A DNA stretch of 35,722 nt from the NCBI GenBank assembly GCA_013204345.1, contig JABMOB010000007.1:1-35722 (forward strand), written 5' to 3'. The notes beneath the pieces were generated by a model. The model worked only from the letters and a program-made list of their open reading frames with translations, searched no databases and was not told the origin of the DNA. The first letter of the stretch is position 1, and each line of letters opens with the position of its first letter. The DNA is from Parcubacteria group bacterium. Lineage in GTDB: Bacteria; Patescibacteriota; Minisyncoccia; Phycocordibacterales; JABMOB01. The position numbers were made by a program, and so were the translations under genes. Below, piece by piece: positions 57 to 33,958 of the stretch.

Positions 57-162
57 ATTTTTGGAAAAGGTCGGGTGAAATCCAACCTTTTTAATTTATA
101 GAATTGTAGTAATTTTATATAGTTTTCAATAAAAGAGTTAGTCTGGTATAATTTTGCTATAT

Positions 163-1896
163 ATGAAAATTGCCGCTGCACAGTTGGAAATTTTACTAGT
201 TGGTTCCAACCTTATTTCTCATAAGGTTTTTACTGATGCGATAAACAAATCCGAAAAAGAGAACATTCCTATTGAGGAATATTTGGTAAATGAAGGAATA
301 ATTTCCGATTTGAATCTGGGCCAATTGATCGCTAACACATTAGGCCAAAGTTACATTAATCTCTCAAGATTAAAAATACCAGAAGAAATTTTGCAAATAA
401 TTCCAGAAGTTGTAGCTCGTTCGCGCGGAGTGATAGCTTTTGCTAAAGACGATAAAAGTGTTTCTCTTGGTATGACTGATCCTGACGATTTAGAAATTAC
501 TAACACGGTTTTTAAGAGAACTGGGTTGTCAGTCAATAGGTTTTTTATTACTACTCTTGATTTTCAGTCCACAGTATCACGTTACAATTCTAGTGCTAAA
601 GATGCATTGGAAAAGATATTGGCCGAATTAAAAGGTGTTTCTTTGTCGAAAATACAAAAAGAAGCAAGTGTTATTAAACTTGTCGATACAATGATGCAAT
701 ATGGACAGCTTAATAATGCGTCAGATGCTCATTTTGATCCCTTGGAAGAATCAGCCGTTTTGCGTTATCGTATCGATGGGATTTTGCACGACATTGTTGA
801 AATTCCAAAAAATATTGTAGAAATGGTAGTCGCCCGAGTCAAAATTTTAGCCAAAATGCGCACCGATGAACAGAGAGCGGCTCAAGATGGTAAATTGACA
901 TTTGCTATGCCTGTTAGTGATAGTGGAAGCAACGCAGAAAAAAAAGAAAGTAAAAAGATTGATGTGCGTGTGTCTATAGTTCCCACCACTCATGGGGAGA
1001 ACATTGTTATGCGATTTCTTTCAATTCAAAATCGAGCGTTGTCTCTTGATGACTTGGGATTCTCTCCTGCAGATGCTGAGAAAGTTAGGCAAGCTATTAA
1101 AAATCCTGTTGGGATGATTTTAGTCACAGGACCGACTGGAAGCGGTAAGACAACAACTCTTTATGGTGTTTTAAAAATTCTTAACAAACGTGAAGTTAAT
1201 ATTGCTACAGTTGAAGATCCGGTAGAGTATGCCATTGAAGGTATTACTCAAATTCAAGTTAATCCAAAAACTGATCTAACATTTGCTAATGGGCTTCGTT
1301 CTATTGTTCGTCAAGATCCAAACATTATTATGGTTGGTGAAATTCGTGACCATGAAACTGCTGACATCGCTGTTAATTCTGCTATGACTGGCCACCTTGT
1401 TCTTTCTACTTTGCATACCAATAACGCCGCCACTACTTTGCCAAGACTTCTGGATATGGGTATTGAGCCATTTTTAATTGCTTCAACTATCAATATTGCC
1501 GTTGCTCAACGTTTGGTTAGAAAAGTTTGTGAAAACTGTCGTGAGTCTTATATATATTCTGATGATGAAAAATTGTTGATTGAAACTTTGCCGCGTTTAA
1601 AAAATTCTTTGGTTAAACGTGTTGGGGAAGATCTTTCCACCCTCCGTCTTTATAAAGGAAAAGGTTGTAAGGTTTGTGAAAATACTGGCTATGTTGGGCG
1701 TATTGGTGTTTTTGAGATTTTATCTATGAGCTCGAAAATAAAGGCCGCTATTTTAAATCGAGCATCTAGTCAGGAAATTGAAACTATTGCTGAGTCTGAG
1801 GGTATGACTCCAATGTTTGAAGATGGTATTGAAAAAGTGCTAAAAGGGATTACCACAATAACAGAATTGCTTCGTGTAGCAAGTAGTGAGTATTAA
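163..1896 (+). CDS. pilB: Type IV pilus assembly / type II secretion ATPase (PilB/GspE family)
   Basis: Walker A GPTGSGKTTTLY, VRQDPNIIMVGEIRD, CENC...CKVC cysteine motif. ORF track starts at 154; ATG at 163 (MKIAAAQLE) preferred because TATAAT lies at 147-152. Confidence 0.93.
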   Translation: MKIAAAQLEILLVGSNLISHKVFTDAINKSEKENIPIEEYLVNEGIISDLNLGQLIANTLGQSYINLSRLKIPEEILQIIPEVVARSRGVIAFAKDDKSVSLGMTDPDDLEITNTVFKRTGLSVNRFFITTLDFQSTVSRYNSSAKDALEKILAELKGVSLSKIQKEASVIKLVDTMMQYGQLNNASDAHFDPLEESAVLRYRIDGILHDIVEIPKNIVEMVVARVKILAKMRTDEQRAAQDGKLTFAMPVSDSGSNAEKKESKKIDVRVSIVPTTHGENIVMRFLSIQNRALSLDDLGFSPADAEKVRQAIKNPVGMILVTGPTGSGKTTTLYGVLKILNKREVNIATVEDPVEYAIEGITQIQVNPKTDLTFANGLRSIVRQDPNIIMVGEIRDHETADIAVNSAMTGHLVLSTLHTNNAATTLPRLLDMGIEPFLIASTINIAVAQRLVRKVCENCRESYIYSDDEKLLIETLPRLKNSLVKRVGEDLSTLRLYKGKGCKVCENTGYVGRIGVFEILSMSSKIKAAILNRASSQEIETIAESEGMTPMFEDGIEKVLKGITTITELLRVASSEY

Positions 1897-2989
1897 TTGT
1901 ATGTTGAAAAACAAAACAAAAAAAAGTGCTTTCAATATAGAAATAAATATCGGCGGTTTTAGTCTAACTGAGAAAGTATTGTTTGCAAAAAATATGGCGG
2001 TAATGATTAAGTCAGGGCTCACTATTAGTGATGCGTTGGATATTACAGCCGACTCAATGTCCGGAAAATTTAAAAAGATTATCAAAAGGATTCAGGAATC
2101 TGTCGAATCCGGCAACAAATTTAGTGATTCTTTAAAAGAATATCCAAAAATTTTTCCACCTCTTTTTATAAGTGCGGTTTTTGCTGGAGAAACTTCTGGA
2201 TCGCTTGAAGAAAATCTAGAACATGCATCTGAACAAATGCGCAAAGAAAAGGAATTGTCCGGAAAGATAAAAGGGGCAATGCTGTATCCAATAGTGGTTC
2301 TTATCGCTACTTTTGCTTTAGGTATGGCCATCTCCTTTTTTGTTTTACCACAAATCACTCCTCTTTTTGAGGGATTAAATGTAAAGCTTCCAGTCACTAC
2401 TCGCGGATTAATCTGGTTTTCTCATTTGGTTCAAAATCATGGTTTTATTTTATTCGGAGGCGCTATCATCTTTTTGGTTGGTCTTGTTTATATAACTAGG
2501 CAAAAATTTTCTTACCCGACTACTCATTGGTTATTATTGAATTCTCCAGTAATCAAACAACTTGTTAGAAATGCCAATATTGCTAGATTTTGTCGAACCC
2601 TCGGTACACTTCTTAAAAGTGGTTTAACAATAAGTGAAGCTGTTGGCATAACAAACTCATCACTTGATAATTATTATTATAAAAAAGCGGTTTCAGATGT
2701 GGCCGACCGACTCGGGTCTGGGACTCCACTTTCCGAACATCTTAAGAGGCATGAAAATCTTTTTCCAAAATTAGTTACTCGTATGATTCATGTTGGAGAG
2801 CAGTCGGGTAAATTGGAAGATTCACTATACTATTTAGCTAGTTTCTATGAAGAAGAAGTAGATAATAGTGCCAAAACGATGGCTACTGCTATCGAGCCAG
2901 TGCTTTTAATTGGAATTGGATTAGTCGTAGGATTTCTAGCTCTGTCTATTATCACTCCTATTTATAGTATAACTGGTAACCTAAAGTAG
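1886..2989 (+). CDS. pilC: Type IV pilus inner membrane protein (PilC/GspF family)
   Basis: Two GspF-like repeats (FAKNMAVMIKSGLTISDAL..., FCRTLGTLLKSGLTISEAV...) and C-terminal TM; overlaps pilB end. Confidence 0.92.
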   Translation: MSINCMLKNKTKKSAFNIEINIGGFSLTEKVLFAKNMAVMIKSGLTISDALDITADSMSGKFKKIIKRIQESVESGNKFSDSLKEYPKIFPPLFISAVFAGETSGSLEENLEHASEQMRKEKELSGKIKGAMLYPIVVLIATFALGMAISFFVLPQITPLFEGLNVKLPVTTRGLIWFSHLVQNHGFILFGGAIIFLVGLVYITRQKFSYPTTHWLLLNSPVIKQLVRNANIARFCRTLGTLLKSGLTISEAVGITNSSLDNYYYKKAVSDVADRLGSGTPLSEHLKRHENLFPKLVTRMIHVGEQSGKLEDSLYYLASFYEEEVDNSAKTMATAIEPVLLIGIGLVVGFLALSIITPIYSITGNLK

Positions 2990-3001
2990 GTAGTAGAGCA
3001 G

Positions 3002-3019
3002 TAGGGGGTAGGTAGTAGG
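3002..3019. repeat. Left arm of imperfect inverted repeat flanking the four-helix-bundle gene (TAGGGGGTAGGTAGTAGG)
   Basis: Reverse complement matches 3421-3438 (CCTACAACCTACTCCCTA) at 16/18 positions. Confidence 0.8.
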
Positions 3020-3028
3020 AAATTTAAA

Positions 3029-3394
3029 ATGGATAATGTAAAAATAGAATCATATAAAGATTTAATTGTCTGGCAAAAAGCAGTAGAGCTTGTGACCGCT
3101 ATATACAAATTAACAGATCAGTTTCCGAGAGAAGAGATATATGGGCTGACTTCTCAAATGCGTAGATCTTCAGTTTCGATCCCATCAAATATTGCAGAAG
3201 GAAAAAGACGCGGAACTCAAAAGGATTATAGACAGTTTTTAATAATCGCATTTGGTTCTGGGTCTGAACTTGAAACACAATTATTGATTGCTAGAAATCT
3301 TGCTTTCATAAATAGTAAAGATACTAAGGAAGTTGACAGACTACTTGATGAAATAATGCGTATGTTAAATGTTTTAATTGCTAAGCTCAAATGA
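3029..3394 (+). CDS. Four-helix-bundle protein (23S rRNA intervening-sequence / S23 family)
   Basis: Family-typical sequence: YKDLIVWQKAVELV...LTSQMRRSSVSIPSNIAEGKRRGTQKDYRQFL...GSGSELETQL. Confidence 0.9.
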   Translation: MDNVKIESYKDLIVWQKAVELVTAIYKLTDQFPREEIYGLTSQMRRSSVSIPSNIAEGKRRGTQKDYRQFLIIAFGSGSELETQLLIARNLAFINSKDTKEVDRLLDEIMRMLNVLIAKLK

Positions 3395-3880
3395 AAAAAT
3401 CTACAACCTACAACCTACAACCTACAACCTACTCCCTATAATCAAGGTTTTACCTTGATTGAGTTATTGATCGTCATCGGTATAACTACCATTTTAGCCG
3501 GCGTGTCTTCTGTGGTATATGGGAACCTTCAAGTTTCTTCCCAACTCAACGAAACTTCAGCCCAGATTACTCAAAACCTACGTATCGCTCGCGAACAAAG
3601 CAGTTCAGGTTTAAATAATATTGCTCATGGGGTGGAATTTACTTCATCGCAATACACTATTTATCAAGGAGCTTCATACGCTACACGAGATTCTTCTTAT
3701 GATCGTGTTTATTCACTTCCTTCAGCTGTCACTTTATCTACAACTCTGACTGGCGATGAAGTTCTTTTTTCCAAGGGTGTAGGGATCCCGAGTACAACAG
3801 GCACGATTACCATTACACATTCAGTTAATGGTTCAAAAACAATTTCTGTTAATAATCAGGGTATTATCCTTGAGCAATAA
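3391..3880 (+). CDS. Prepilin-like/GspH-type pseudopilin; ATG (3391) out of frame with the body in this sequence (ORF track shows only 3455-3880)
   Basis: Prepilin cleavage/TM motif G|FTLIELLIVIGITTILAGV encoded from 3446. ATG at 3391 overlaps upstream TGA but is 55 nt away (+1 frame) because of the heptamer tract. Confidence 0.75.
3401..3432 (+). repeat. Heptanucleotide tandem repeat (CTACAAC)x4 + CTAC
   Basis: Read directly: ctacaac ctacaac ctacaac ctacaac ctac; no interruptions. Confidence 0.97.
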
Positions 3881-6450
3881 TGATTAAAAAAATAAATTTA
3901 CAAAAAGGACAATCACTTATTGAAGTTATTGTGGCGATGGCTATTTTTGCCATTATGTCTGGAGCAATTATGAGTGTGACTCTCGGTAGTCTAAATGGTC
4001 TAACCCAAGGCGGAGAAGAAACTGAAGCCAAAGCTTTGACACAGGAGGGAATGGAAGCAATTCGTTCGGTGCGTGATGATGCGTGGAATAATCTTGTTTA
4101 TAGCCCAGCTTCAGTAGCAACAAGTAGTAACGCTTGGTTTATTTCAGAGGACGTTTCAGAGCTTATCAATAATAAATATACTCGCATCATTACAATTTCT
4201 AATGTTTGTCGTGATGGAAGTAATAATATCGCAACTTGTCCCGCAACGTATATTGATCCACATACCAAATTTGCTTCTACTACCGTAAGTTGGTCACCAA
4301 GAAATGGGGCAACAAATATAGTAGAACAGTTTGGTTTTATTAGTAATTGGGATTCATATGATTGGACACAAACTGATTGGTCTGGGGGGAACGGACAAAC
4401 GAATTGGTCTTCTGATACCAAATACGATACAGATGACAGTAAGATTGATGTTACAACATCTGGGGAAGTGAAGTTAGCTACAGTTAGTTCAATCCCGTTA
4501 GTTAAAGACTCAGATTTTGAAGGTTCAACAAATACTAGTTATGATTGGCCATTTACGACAGCTGGGAATTATACATATGACACAGATGCTATTGAGGTAA
4601 CAGGTGGTGTAGCACGATTAAACAGTAGCGGTGGTGATCCAATTGATGGAAATACCAAAGGAATGTGGCATCTGGACGAGGCTAGTGGAACAGTTGTTGA
4701 TTATTCAGGGAATTCAAATGACCTTTCTAATGTTAAAGGCTCACCTTCCTATAACCAATCTGGTAAATTTAGCACCTCGCTACAATTTAATGCTAATAGT
4801 TCTCGATATATTAATAATGGTCAACAGACCGGATTAGGTATTACTGGTCCAATTACCATTGATGCTTGGGTTTATAAAACTTCTGCAGCAACAACCAATC
4901 AAGCCATTATTTCTAAATGGCGCGAGACTGGTAATAAACGATCTTATGCTCTAATTTTAAATTCAAGTAATAAGTTACAATTTTATCTTTCAAGTAATGG
5001 TTCGAATGCTACCAGTGTTAGTGCGGTAAACCAATTGCCGCTAAATTCCTGGGTACATATAGCAGCTGTTTATGATGGTGTACAAATGTATATTTTTCAA
5101 AATGGAATATTAGAAAACTCTATTGCATATAGTGGGGGTATCTCTGATGAGGCAGCATTCGTTAGTGTTAGTGGGGCTGACAGTTTTGATGGTGGAGATG
5201 CTTTTTTTAATGGCAAAATAGATGAAGCTCGTGTATCTGATATCGCTCGATGGACTGGAGCATTTACAGTACCAAGTGGAGTATACGGAGCAGTTTCGTA
5301 TGCTTCAGATAGTCCTACCATTAATCCTAGTAGTTCTTTTACTGAAACTGATGTTATTAGTTGGGATTCTTTTACTGAAATCGCTACTAAAAATGGCGGA
5401 CAAATATATTATCAGCTCTCTGATGATAGTGGTTCCACTTGGCAGTATTGGGATGGATCCGCTTGGTCAGCTGTCTCTCTGGCTACTGACTATAATACAG
5501 CTACGGATATAAATACAAATATTGGAACCTTTGATGTTACAGCCGAAAAGATATTATTTAAAGCTTTTCTGGAAAGTGATGGTTCTCAACAAGTTCAGTT
5601 GGACAATATTAATATCGGATTTTCTCCAGCTAGTTCCGCTTGGACATTTAATACTTGGAACAAAGGAAGTGGGGAAGTAACACCAACTGGTACCAGACAG
5701 ACTTCAGGCGGGAATCCCACTGGATATGCTGATATAGATATTCCGTCAAATGCTAAAAATGATGAAGTTGGAGGATTTTGGCAACAAACAATTGAGGTCG
5801 CTAATAACGGAGACACTTTAACTTGTGAATTAGATTGGAAAGTTTTTGATTGGGTAGCTGCTGATGGTGTTGATGATAGTCAGTTGTACGTTTTCTTAGA
5901 TTCAACAAGTGGGGATCCATCAATTGGTACTGAGATTTGGTCATCCGGTATCTTATCCGGCACATCAGGTTGGACAGGTGTTTCGTTTGATTGCTCAGCC
6001 GCAGCCTCAACTGCTGGAACATATTATATAAAGATTGCTCAATGGCTAGATACCGCTAATGCTCAAGATACTGGACCAATTACAATTGGATATGATGATG
6101 TCGGAATTAACTCTTCGGCTTCGGCATATCAAACTTCTGGTTCATTTGTTTCTTCCGCTTTTGATATGAGTGACGCTTCTCCGGTTCAAGTTATAGAATG
6201 GGATGAGACTAAGCCAGCTAATACAGATATACAAGTACAAGTTCGAACGGCACCAGACTCCGGTGGCTCACATGGAACCTGGACTGATTGGTTCGGTATA
6301 AGTGGGGCTAGTACCTTCTTCAGTAATCATTTTGGATCTTTGATACCGATAGATTTGAATGGTAATCAGTGGGTGCAATATCGGGTTGATCTGTCGGGAG
6401 ACGGATCAGATACCCCTATTTTAGAAGAGATTAGAGTGAATTATAAATAA
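3880..6450 (+). CDS. Large prepilin-like protein with LamG/concanavalin-type domain
   Basis: N-terminal type III signal KGQSLIEVIVAMAIFAIMSGAIM; central GMWHLDEASGTVVDYSGNSNDLS... LamG-like segment. Confidence 0.85.
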   Translation: MIKKINLQKGQSLIEVIVAMAIFAIMSGAIMSVTLGSLNGLTQGGEETEAKALTQEGMEAIRSVRDDAWNNLVYSPASVATSSNAWFISEDVSELINNKYTRIITISNVCRDGSNNIATCPATYIDPHTKFASTTVSWSPRNGATNIVEQFGFISNWDSYDWTQTDWSGGNGQTNWSSDTKYDTDDSKIDVTTSGEVKLATVSSIPLVKDSDFEGSTNTSYDWPFTTAGNYTYDTDAIEVTGGVARLNSSGGDPIDGNTKGMWHLDEASGTVVDYSGNSNDLSNVKGSPSYNQSGKFSTSLQFNANSSRYINNGQQTGLGITGPITIDAWVYKTSAATTNQAIISKWRETGNKRSYALILNSSNKLQFYLSSNGSNATSVSAVNQLPLNSWVHIAAVYDGVQMYIFQNGILENSIAYSGGISDEAAFVSVSGADSFDGGDAFFNGKIDEARVSDIARWTGAFTVPSGVYGAVSYASDSPTINPSSSFTETDVISWDSFTEIATKNGGQIYYQLSDDSGSTWQYWDGSAWSAVSLATDYNTATDINTNIGTFDVTAEKILFKAFLESDGSQQVQLDNINIGFSPASSAWTFNTWNKGSGEVTPTGTRQTSGGNPTGYADIDIPSNAKNDEVGGFWQQTIEVANNGDTLTCELDWKVFDWVAADGVDDSQLYVFLDSTSGDPSIGTEIWSSGILSGTSGWTGVSFDCSAAASTAGTYYIKIAQWLDTANAQDTGPITIGYDDVGINSSASAYQTSGSFVSSAFDMSDASPVQVIEWDETKPANTDIQVQVRTAPDSGGSHGTWTDWFGISGASTFFSNHFGSLIPIDLNGNQWVQYRVDLSGDGSDTPILEEIRVNYK

Positions 6451-11801: not shown

Positions 11802-11870
11802 TATTAGGCATTAGGCATTAGGCTTTAGGAATTTCCTAGTGCCTAGCGCCTAGGGTCTAAAACCCTAAAC
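11802..11870. repeat. TTAGGCA heptamer tandem repeats folding into an inverted repeat (pheS-pheT junction)
   Basis: attaggcattaggcattaggctttaggaa then ttcctagtgcctagcgcctaggg: arms complementary at about 16/20 positions. Confidence 0.8.
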
Positions 11871-25257: not shown

Positions 25258-25953
25258 ATGAATATTGATTTTACCCAATTTGAAAAACTTGCGGGTGTGA
25301 AGTTTAAAGACAAAAACCTTCTTAAACAGGCGTTTCTTCATCGTTCCTATATAAATGAAAATAAGGGTTCTGGGCTAGATCACAATGAGCGTCTGGAGTT
25401 TTTAGGTGATGCAGTTTTGGAGCTGGTTATTACTGAAGAGCTTTATGAAAAATATCCTGCAAAACCGGAGGGGGAATTGACAAGTTATCGCTCGGCTCTT
25501 GTAAATGCAGTGACTTGTGCACAAGTTGCAACCAATTTGAGTGTAAACGATTTTTTACTTCTTTCTCGCGGTGAGGCAAAGGATACCGGTCGTGCTAGAC
25601 AGTTTATTTTGGCGAATACTCTAGAGGCAATTATTGGTGCGATTTATCTTGATCAAGGTTACGAATCAGCCAAAAAATTTATTGCAAAAAATATCTCACC
25701 TTTAATTGATGATATTATAGAAAAACGTGCTTGGATTGATGCAAAAAGTTTGTTTCAAGAAAAAGCACAAGAAGTGGATGGTATTACTCCAGCATACAAA
25801 ACAGTGAAAGAAACTGGTCCAGATCATGATAAGAAATTTACAGTCGGTGTTTATCTCGGTAAAGAGCTCGTCATCTCTGGTGAAGGAGATTCTAAACAGG
25901 AGGCGGAACAAGACGCGGCCAGAAAAGCGTTGGAAAAAAAAGGATGGGAATAG
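25258..25953 (+). CDS. rnc: Ribonuclease III
   Basis: HRSYINE, HNERLEFLGDAVLEL, NTLEAIIGAIYLDQG, dsRBD at the C-terminus. Confidence 0.95.
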   Translation: MNIDFTQFEKLAGVKFKDKNLLKQAFLHRSYINENKGSGLDHNERLEFLGDAVLELVITEELYEKYPAKPEGELTSYRSALVNAVTCAQVATNLSVNDFLLLSRGEAKDTGRARQFILANTLEAIIGAIYLDQGYESAKKFIAKNISPLIDDIIEKRAWIDAKSLFQEKAQEVDGITPAYKTVKETGPDHDKKFTVGVYLGKELVISGEGDSKQEAEQDAARKALEKKGWE

Positions 25954-28642: not shown

Positions 28643-28682
28643 TAGTCTATAAAGTCAAAAGTCCATAAAGTCCTTAAAGTAA
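28643..28682 (+). repeat. Degenerate TAAAGTC short repeats at the smc/rnr junction
   Basis: ctataaagtc aaaagtc cataaagtc cttaaagt. Confidence 0.75.
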
Positions 28683-33058: not shown

Positions 33059-33221
33059 TAAATGCTCGGACTCACCTGTTTTATGGTGGATACGAGCATT
33101 TTATTTACAAAATATTTTAAAATGGTATTGTTTATCCTGTAAATGCTCGGACTCACCTGTTTTATGGTGGATACGAGCATTTTATTTACAAAATATTTTA
33201 AAATGGTATTGTTTATCCTGT
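33059..33221 (+). repeat. Perfect 81-bp tandem duplication, each copy carrying a terminator hairpin
   Basis: aaatgctcggactcacctgttttatggtggatacgagcattttatttacaaaatattttaaaatggtattgtttatcctgt present twice, identical. Confidence 0.97.
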
Positions 33222-33268
33222 TAAATACAACCAAAGATCGTTAGTGTCAGTGTATTTAGCAGAATAAA

Positions 33269-33958
33269 ATGAATTTTCATATCATTACACTTTTTCCAGA
33301 TGCTTTTAGCTCGTATCTAAGCGAGTCTATTTTGAAGCGCGCGATTCTAGACAAAAAAATAAAGATTAAGTTTTACGACCCTAAAGATTTTGAAAAGGAT
33401 AAGAAGAAAAGAGTTGACGATAGGCCTTATGCGGGAGGGCCTGGAATGGTTATACGCGCTCTGCCCGTCATCAAAGCTATCGAACGGGCAATAGCGCAGT
33501 CGAAAGCTTATAAAGTCTATAAAGTCCGTAAAGTTGAATCAAGAAAGCAAAATTCAAGGGTTAAGATTATTTGGTTGAGTCCAGGGGGAAAACAATTTGA
33601 TACTATTTACGCAAAGCAAACAGCTAAAAAGTTTAAGGACATAATTATTGTTTGTGGTAGGTACGAAGGTATTGATGCGCGAGTCAAAAAAGTTTTCAAA
33701 ATGGAAAATATTTCAGTTGGACCATTCGTAGTCACTGGTGGGGAATTGCCGGCGATGATTATTTTGGATTGCATCTCTCGTCAGGTTCCCGGTGTTTTAG
33801 GTGATATAAATTCTTTGGAAGAAAGCCGTACTGCTTCAAGTGATGTTTACACACGCCCTGAAGTTTTTGAATATAAGAGCAAAAAATACAGAGTACCAAA
33901 GGTTCTTCTCTCTGGTGATCACAAAAAAATAGAAGAATGGCGAAAGCGCTCCGCCTAA
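33269..33958 (+). CDS. trmD: tRNA (guanine-N1)-methyltransferase
   Basis: ITLFPDAFSSYL, VDDRPYAGGPGMVI, IIVCGRYEGIDARV, VVTGGELPAMIILD, YTRPEVFE, VLLSGDH. Confidence 0.95.
   Translation: MNFHIITLFPDAFSSYLSESILKRAILDKKIKIKFYDPKDFEKDKKKRVDDRPYAGGPGMVIRALPVIKAIERAIAQSKAYKVYKVRKVESRKQNSRVKIIWLSPGGKQFDTIYAKQTAKKFKDIIIVCGRYEGIDARVKKVFKMENISVGPFVVTGGELPAMIILDCISRQVPGVLGDINSLEESRTASSDVYTRPEVFEYKSKKYRVPKVLLSGDHKKIEEWRKRSA
33508..33537 (+). repeat. TATAAAGTC-type short repeats inside trmD
   Basis: ttataaagtc tataaagtc cgtaaagtt encoding YKVYKVRKV. Confidence 0.75.

Follow-up and report, generated by a model that had tools for sequence, protein, structure and literature searches.

A heptamer array in front of a patescibacterial prepilin gene is probably the terminal arm of an IVS-like element

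The window, by which we mean the whole 35,722-nucleotide stretch of DNA analysed here, is contig C5 of a 756-kb draft genome in 47 contigs. The host is a Patescibacterium related to Magasanikbacteria; the nearest match of its PilC (65%) is to Candidatus Magasanikbacteria records. Near the start of the window lies a pilus operon with genes for an assembly ATPase and an inner-membrane protein, followed by a gene for an IVP/S23p protein between two inverted arms and then by two prepilin genes (Table 1). The TAG stop of pilC forms the first part of the left arm, and the ATG of the second prepilin overlaps the stop of the first (TAATG).

Table 1 Features of the window discussed in the text, with positions on the forward strand and the evidence for each.
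Feature	Position	Strand	Evidence
pilB/gspE-type pilus assembly ATPase	154..1896	+	T2SSE 7.7e-123, MshEN, TIGR02538
pilC/gspF inner-membrane protein	1886..2989	+	T2SSF 7.3e-61
Left arm, degenerate AGTAGGT-like heptamers, inverted relative to the right arm	2986..3019	+	TRF period 7
Gene for a 121-aa IVP/S23p protein (four-helix bundle), in the loop enclosed by the arms	3029..3394	+	PF05635 2.3e-40; TIGR02436 4.6e-38; PDB 2gsc 3.9e-27
Presumed prepilin start, an ATG that overlaps the stop of the IVP gene (ATGA)	3391..3393	+	Sequence; like layout in L067 and L179
A6 tract, second candidate site of a frame-breaking indel	3394..3399	+	Sequence
Right arm, (CTACAAC)x4 + CTAC	3401..3432	+	TRF 100%; pairs with left arm
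GspH/FimT-like type IV prepilin body, GFTLIELLIVIG...	3446..3880	+	N_methyl 1.3e-4, GspH 2.5e-4
Second prepilin with LamG-like domain	3880..6450	+	N_methyl 1e-6, Laminin_G_3 1.8e-24
Second heptameric hairpin of like design, without IVP gene, pheS-pheT junction	11803..11853	+	Fold -31.1 kcal/mol, z -5.8
RNase III	25258..25953	+	PF14622 6.4e-39, PF00636, dsrm

A preliminary description of this DNA had reported a perfect heptamer array between an ATG and a prepilin body that is out of frame with it. Direct reading of the sequence bore this out. Tandem Repeats Finder gives the array a period of 7, 4.6 copies, a 100% match and a score of 64. With up to two mismatches, the pattern CTACAACCTACAAC occurs five times in the window against 0.18 expected, and its exact form has no second place in the 756-kb genome. 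Read from the ATG, the frame is MKKSTTYNLQPTTYSL and stops at a TAA (3439-3441). The pilin-frame codons of 3395-3445 (KNLQPTTYNLQPTPYNQ), back to a TGA at 3392, contain no ATG, GTG, TTG, CTG or ATN, as had also been noted. The prepilin motif GFTLIELLIVIG is present with its N_methyl and GspH matches, and the body is coding in the frame described: the codon log-likelihood is +0.10 per codon, versus -0.40 and -0.61 in the other frames. Matches to the body were found in 62 of 98 genomes searched, its own genome counted. The gene thus has the leader ending in G, the F-x(3)-E and the hydrophobic helix of a type IV prepilin, and this allele lacks an in-frame start for a translated leader. Because start and body are out of frame by one base, the pilin, judged from its sequence, is off as assembled. 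Removing one heptamer brings it back in frame, just as the preliminary description had stated. Dropping one A from the A6 tract does so too, and the number of heptamers is therefore not the sole candidate for the indel.

The protein encoded between the arms scores 137.5 bits against PF05635 (cut-off 33.8) and belongs to the S23p family. The left arm aligns with the reverse complement of the right arm at a score of 31, and in an RNA fold of 2980-3450 (-107.4 kcal/mol, z -2.5) the paired arms enclose the entire IVP gene. The arms are imperfect and their match is moderate. To look at the family as a whole, we compared the left flank of each IVP ORF with the reverse complement of its right flank. 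Scores of at least 30 were obtained at 40 of 88 IVP ORFs of the order versus 2 of 35 control ORFs, and flanks compared in direct orientation reached this score at none of the 88. The arm alignment, the fold and this survey all show the terminal inverted repeats, forming a stem round the ORF, that characterize S23p elements. The most frequent period of IVP flanks is 7. Three IVP copies are present in the window's genome; all three have inverted arms, and each pair of arms has its own sequence. What sets the window's element apart from S23p elements is its location at a pilC-prepilin junction instead of in an rRNA gene; a search of the 35,722-nt window found no rRNA, and no Rfam family matches the hairpin. 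We assign a probability of about 0.8 to the reading that the array forms the right-hand arm at the end of an IVS-like element, in which an IVP/S23p gene lies between inverted arms of degenerate heptamers at the pilC-prepilin junction. The proposal that the array arose as a contingency locus of the pilin gene gives way to this reading.

The closest parallel is the IVS of Coxiella burnetii, an S23p ORF in helix 45 of the 23S rRNA whose terminal inverted repeats form a stem of 28 bp that RNase III cuts, and which carries two or three tandem heptamers, depending on the strain, 5' of the ORF (PMC4990558). The window's element resembles it in the IVP/S23p gene in the loop, the terminal inverted repeats (about 28 bp in Coxiella) and the tandem heptamers adjoining the ORF. 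Unlike the Coxiella IVS, it is found among the protein genes of a pilus operon, where its right arm would form the leader of a prepilin. The window's genome encodes RNase III, the class of enzyme that cuts IVS stems in rRNA. IVP-bearing insertion sequences have been described in 16S and 23S rRNA genes of CPR bacteria, according to the accessible portion of that study (PMC11270868). They share their protein family and bacterial radiation with the window's element, which lies between protein genes instead; that portion reports no link to prepilins. The Avd accessory proteins of diversity-generating retroelements are distant four-helix-bundle relatives; the match to NF033474 (1.9e-7) stays far under its curated cut-off. 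Our literature search found no published report of IVP elements outside rRNA genes or of heptamer leaders of prepilins.

In most relatives the prepilin gene directly follows pilC, as a rule with a short leader. The order pilC, IVP, prepilin was also found in L067 (genome G130) and in L092, a Magasanikbacteria locus with an IVP of a distant subfamily, while in G027 the IVP gene lies between the genes for the prepilin peptidase and a prepilin. Since at least three label changes are needed on the IVP tree to account for the IVPs at pilus loci, these elements are best read as separate arrivals. The empty site, with pilC next to the prepilin gene, is reconstructed from genomes of families other than the window's own. 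From this comparison we infer that the element was inserted. A prepilin lies within 260 nt of the IVP gene at 5 of 94 IVP loci; as several of the 94 were picked for pilC or for the heptamer, we claim no enrichment of prepilins near IVP genes.

Arms serve as prepilin leaders elsewhere. In L067 and L179, an ATG that overlaps the 3' end of the IVP gene or lies just past it precedes a heptamer arm and then the motif G/FTxxE. In G130 the prepilin starts within the end of the IVP gene, and its leader is MNWKRNSLQPTTYNLQPNQ before GFTLVE. The corresponding leaders are MPNNKSEKKLLTTHYSLPTKS before GFTMVE in G027 and MKNKNLQSVGFLLQPTTYNLQPNR before GFAML in G316, and in L106 a complete hairpin lies within the leader. 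This last hairpin, built of GGAACAC and GTTCCGT (L106:5125-5230), adjoins an IVP gene with similar flank repeats. Apart from the window's, 12 leaders bear an arm, and each of them has an in-frame ATG before the array; L116 was left out of this set because its array lies 5' of the start codon. Among patescibacterial loci picked by PilC alone, arrays of period 7 or 8 precede 6 of 39 prepilin motifs versus 2 of 186 starts of other genes (p=4e-4, with thresholds of the array scan set in the course of the analysis). In a random sample of N_methyl proteins a strong array was present in 1 of 101 leaders, which makes arm-built leaders a minority trait, and one not typical of the best-scoring major pilins. 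A search of 380 genomes of the phylum for a CTACAAC array followed by GFT or GFA matched the window only, because the sequence of the arms differs by lineage; a leader scan independent of sequence took its place.

These observations suggest how the locus may work. Insertion of the element would have displaced the original pilin start, so that translation of the prepilin would now be meant to begin at the ATG where the IVP gene ends and to continue across the arm. The arm would then be a disposable leader ending in G/F, removed by the prepilin peptidase. Inserts of this kind are tolerated in a leader that is later removed, and this gives a concrete reason for the association of element and prepilin. 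With the one-base offset of the assembly, the prepilin would not be made, and perhaps neither would the second prepilin coupled to it. In the mRNA the stem also covers the ribosome-binding region of the IVP gene, and it may serve as a target of RNase III or as a means of translation control. An RNase III cut would leave the ATG and the pilin body on different pieces of RNA, so that within one transcript excision would conflict with reading the arm as a leader.

For the frame offset itself, we give even odds to an assembly error or a fixed frameshift, with one heptamer or one A too many, where the true gene would be in frame or else a pseudogene of recent origin. Assembly errors typically fall in short tandem repeats and homopolymers; both are present here, in a draft genome of 47 contigs. 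The window's allele is also the only one out of frame among 153 prepilin sites. A simple indel or an assembly error, located either in the heptamers or in the A6 tract, fits the sequence equally well as slippage does.

The preliminary description had instead proposed functional phase variation, in which slippage of the heptamers switches the pilin and three or six units are in frame; on this reading the assembly would have captured an off state. In slipped-strand contingency loci, a tandem repeat whose unit is not a multiple of 3 lies between the start codon and the body of a gene. Such loci control pili and other surface genes in Haemophilus and Neisseria, as the accessible portion of one account has it (PMC2651432). 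The window's repeat has this placement and a unit not divisible by 3, and slippage by one unit would change the frame of the pilin; with a perfect heptamer array as its leader, the locus can in principle switch. Unlike the Haemophilus and Neisseria loci, the repeat has an inverted partner, is part of an IVP element and is known here from the sequence of one allele.

Parts of the proposal are supported. The ATG it named as the start is the one expected from the layout in L067 and L179, arm heptamers are translated in frame as leaders of like make-up in the relatives, and the pilin body is intact and coding. Copy number varies among Coxiella strains (PMC4990558), and an orthologous hairpin before pilC in two congeners, of a genus other than the window's, has four CTACAAC units in one and five CTAAAAC units in the other. 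Against it stand the single allele seen, the A6 tract as an equally good site of the change, and the one comparable pair of orthologous leaders, NLQPTTYNLQPSK and NLSPETRNLKPQK before GFT in genus g5: the frame is kept in both species, which favours stability over switching. Slipped-strand switching of the window's pilin is thus possible on the sequence, and we hold functional phase variation to be a tentative reading, with the odds somewhat worse than one in three. A dispersed repeat in genus g5, about 115 bp long and self-palindromic, has many copies on both strands (at L265:5713-5840 and at dozens of sites in G316) and is distinct from the heptamer element.

Recoding is improbable. The present allele would yield the pilin by a +1 ribosomal frameshift near CTA TAA (3436-3441), by transcript slippage at the A6 tract or by readthrough of TGA 3392, this last giving an IVP-pilin fusion. 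The pilin does lie in the frame of the IVP gene, and since frame 2 is open over 3395-3445, any +1 shift within that stretch would suffice. However, the A6 tract is short, and TGA acts as a stop in other genes. Inspection revealed neither a Shine-Dalgarno-like stimulator nor a slippery codon of the RF2 type, and we set a programmed +1 frameshift aside. An alternative genetic code with TGA readthrough was rejected because TGA stops other genes and is absent from the interior of long ORFs.

That the array is a simple repeat of its own, unrelated to the IVP gene, is already disfavoured and very unlikely: CTACAAC and other heptamer hairpins do occur between genes without an IVP gene in several genomes, and a hairpin of this kind (ATTAGGC x4 plus inverted partner) lies at the pheS-pheT junction of the window, but many IVP-less arrays have an inverted partner, inverted arms flank nearly half of the IVP genes compared, and CTACAAC itself builds the right arm of the IVP element in L067.

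Returning to the IVS-like element, such elements and the S23p proteins have so far been regarded as curiosities of rRNA genes, their function obscure. Protein operons from across an order of Patescibacteria now show this architecture, along with IVP-less hairpins of like make, and the terminal repeats of the element are coding sequence for prepilin leaders. A broader and more speculative proposal, to which we give a rather low likelihood, is that heptameric hairpin elements, with or without IVP, have been inserted repeatedly into patescibacterial operons for type IV pili, their arms acting as leaders and as slippage-prone frame switches. If copy number also varies in populations, the elements would provide pili with a frame-switch system in a group in which surface variation is hardly known.

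Two other repeats were noted in the window. At the convergent junction of smc and rnr (28649-28680) there are AGTCCATAA-type repeats akin to those arms that flank the IVP gene on another contig of this genome, C15. Just 5' of a trmD-like gene at 33269, positions 33059-33226 hold two tandem copies of 81 bp with 98% identity.
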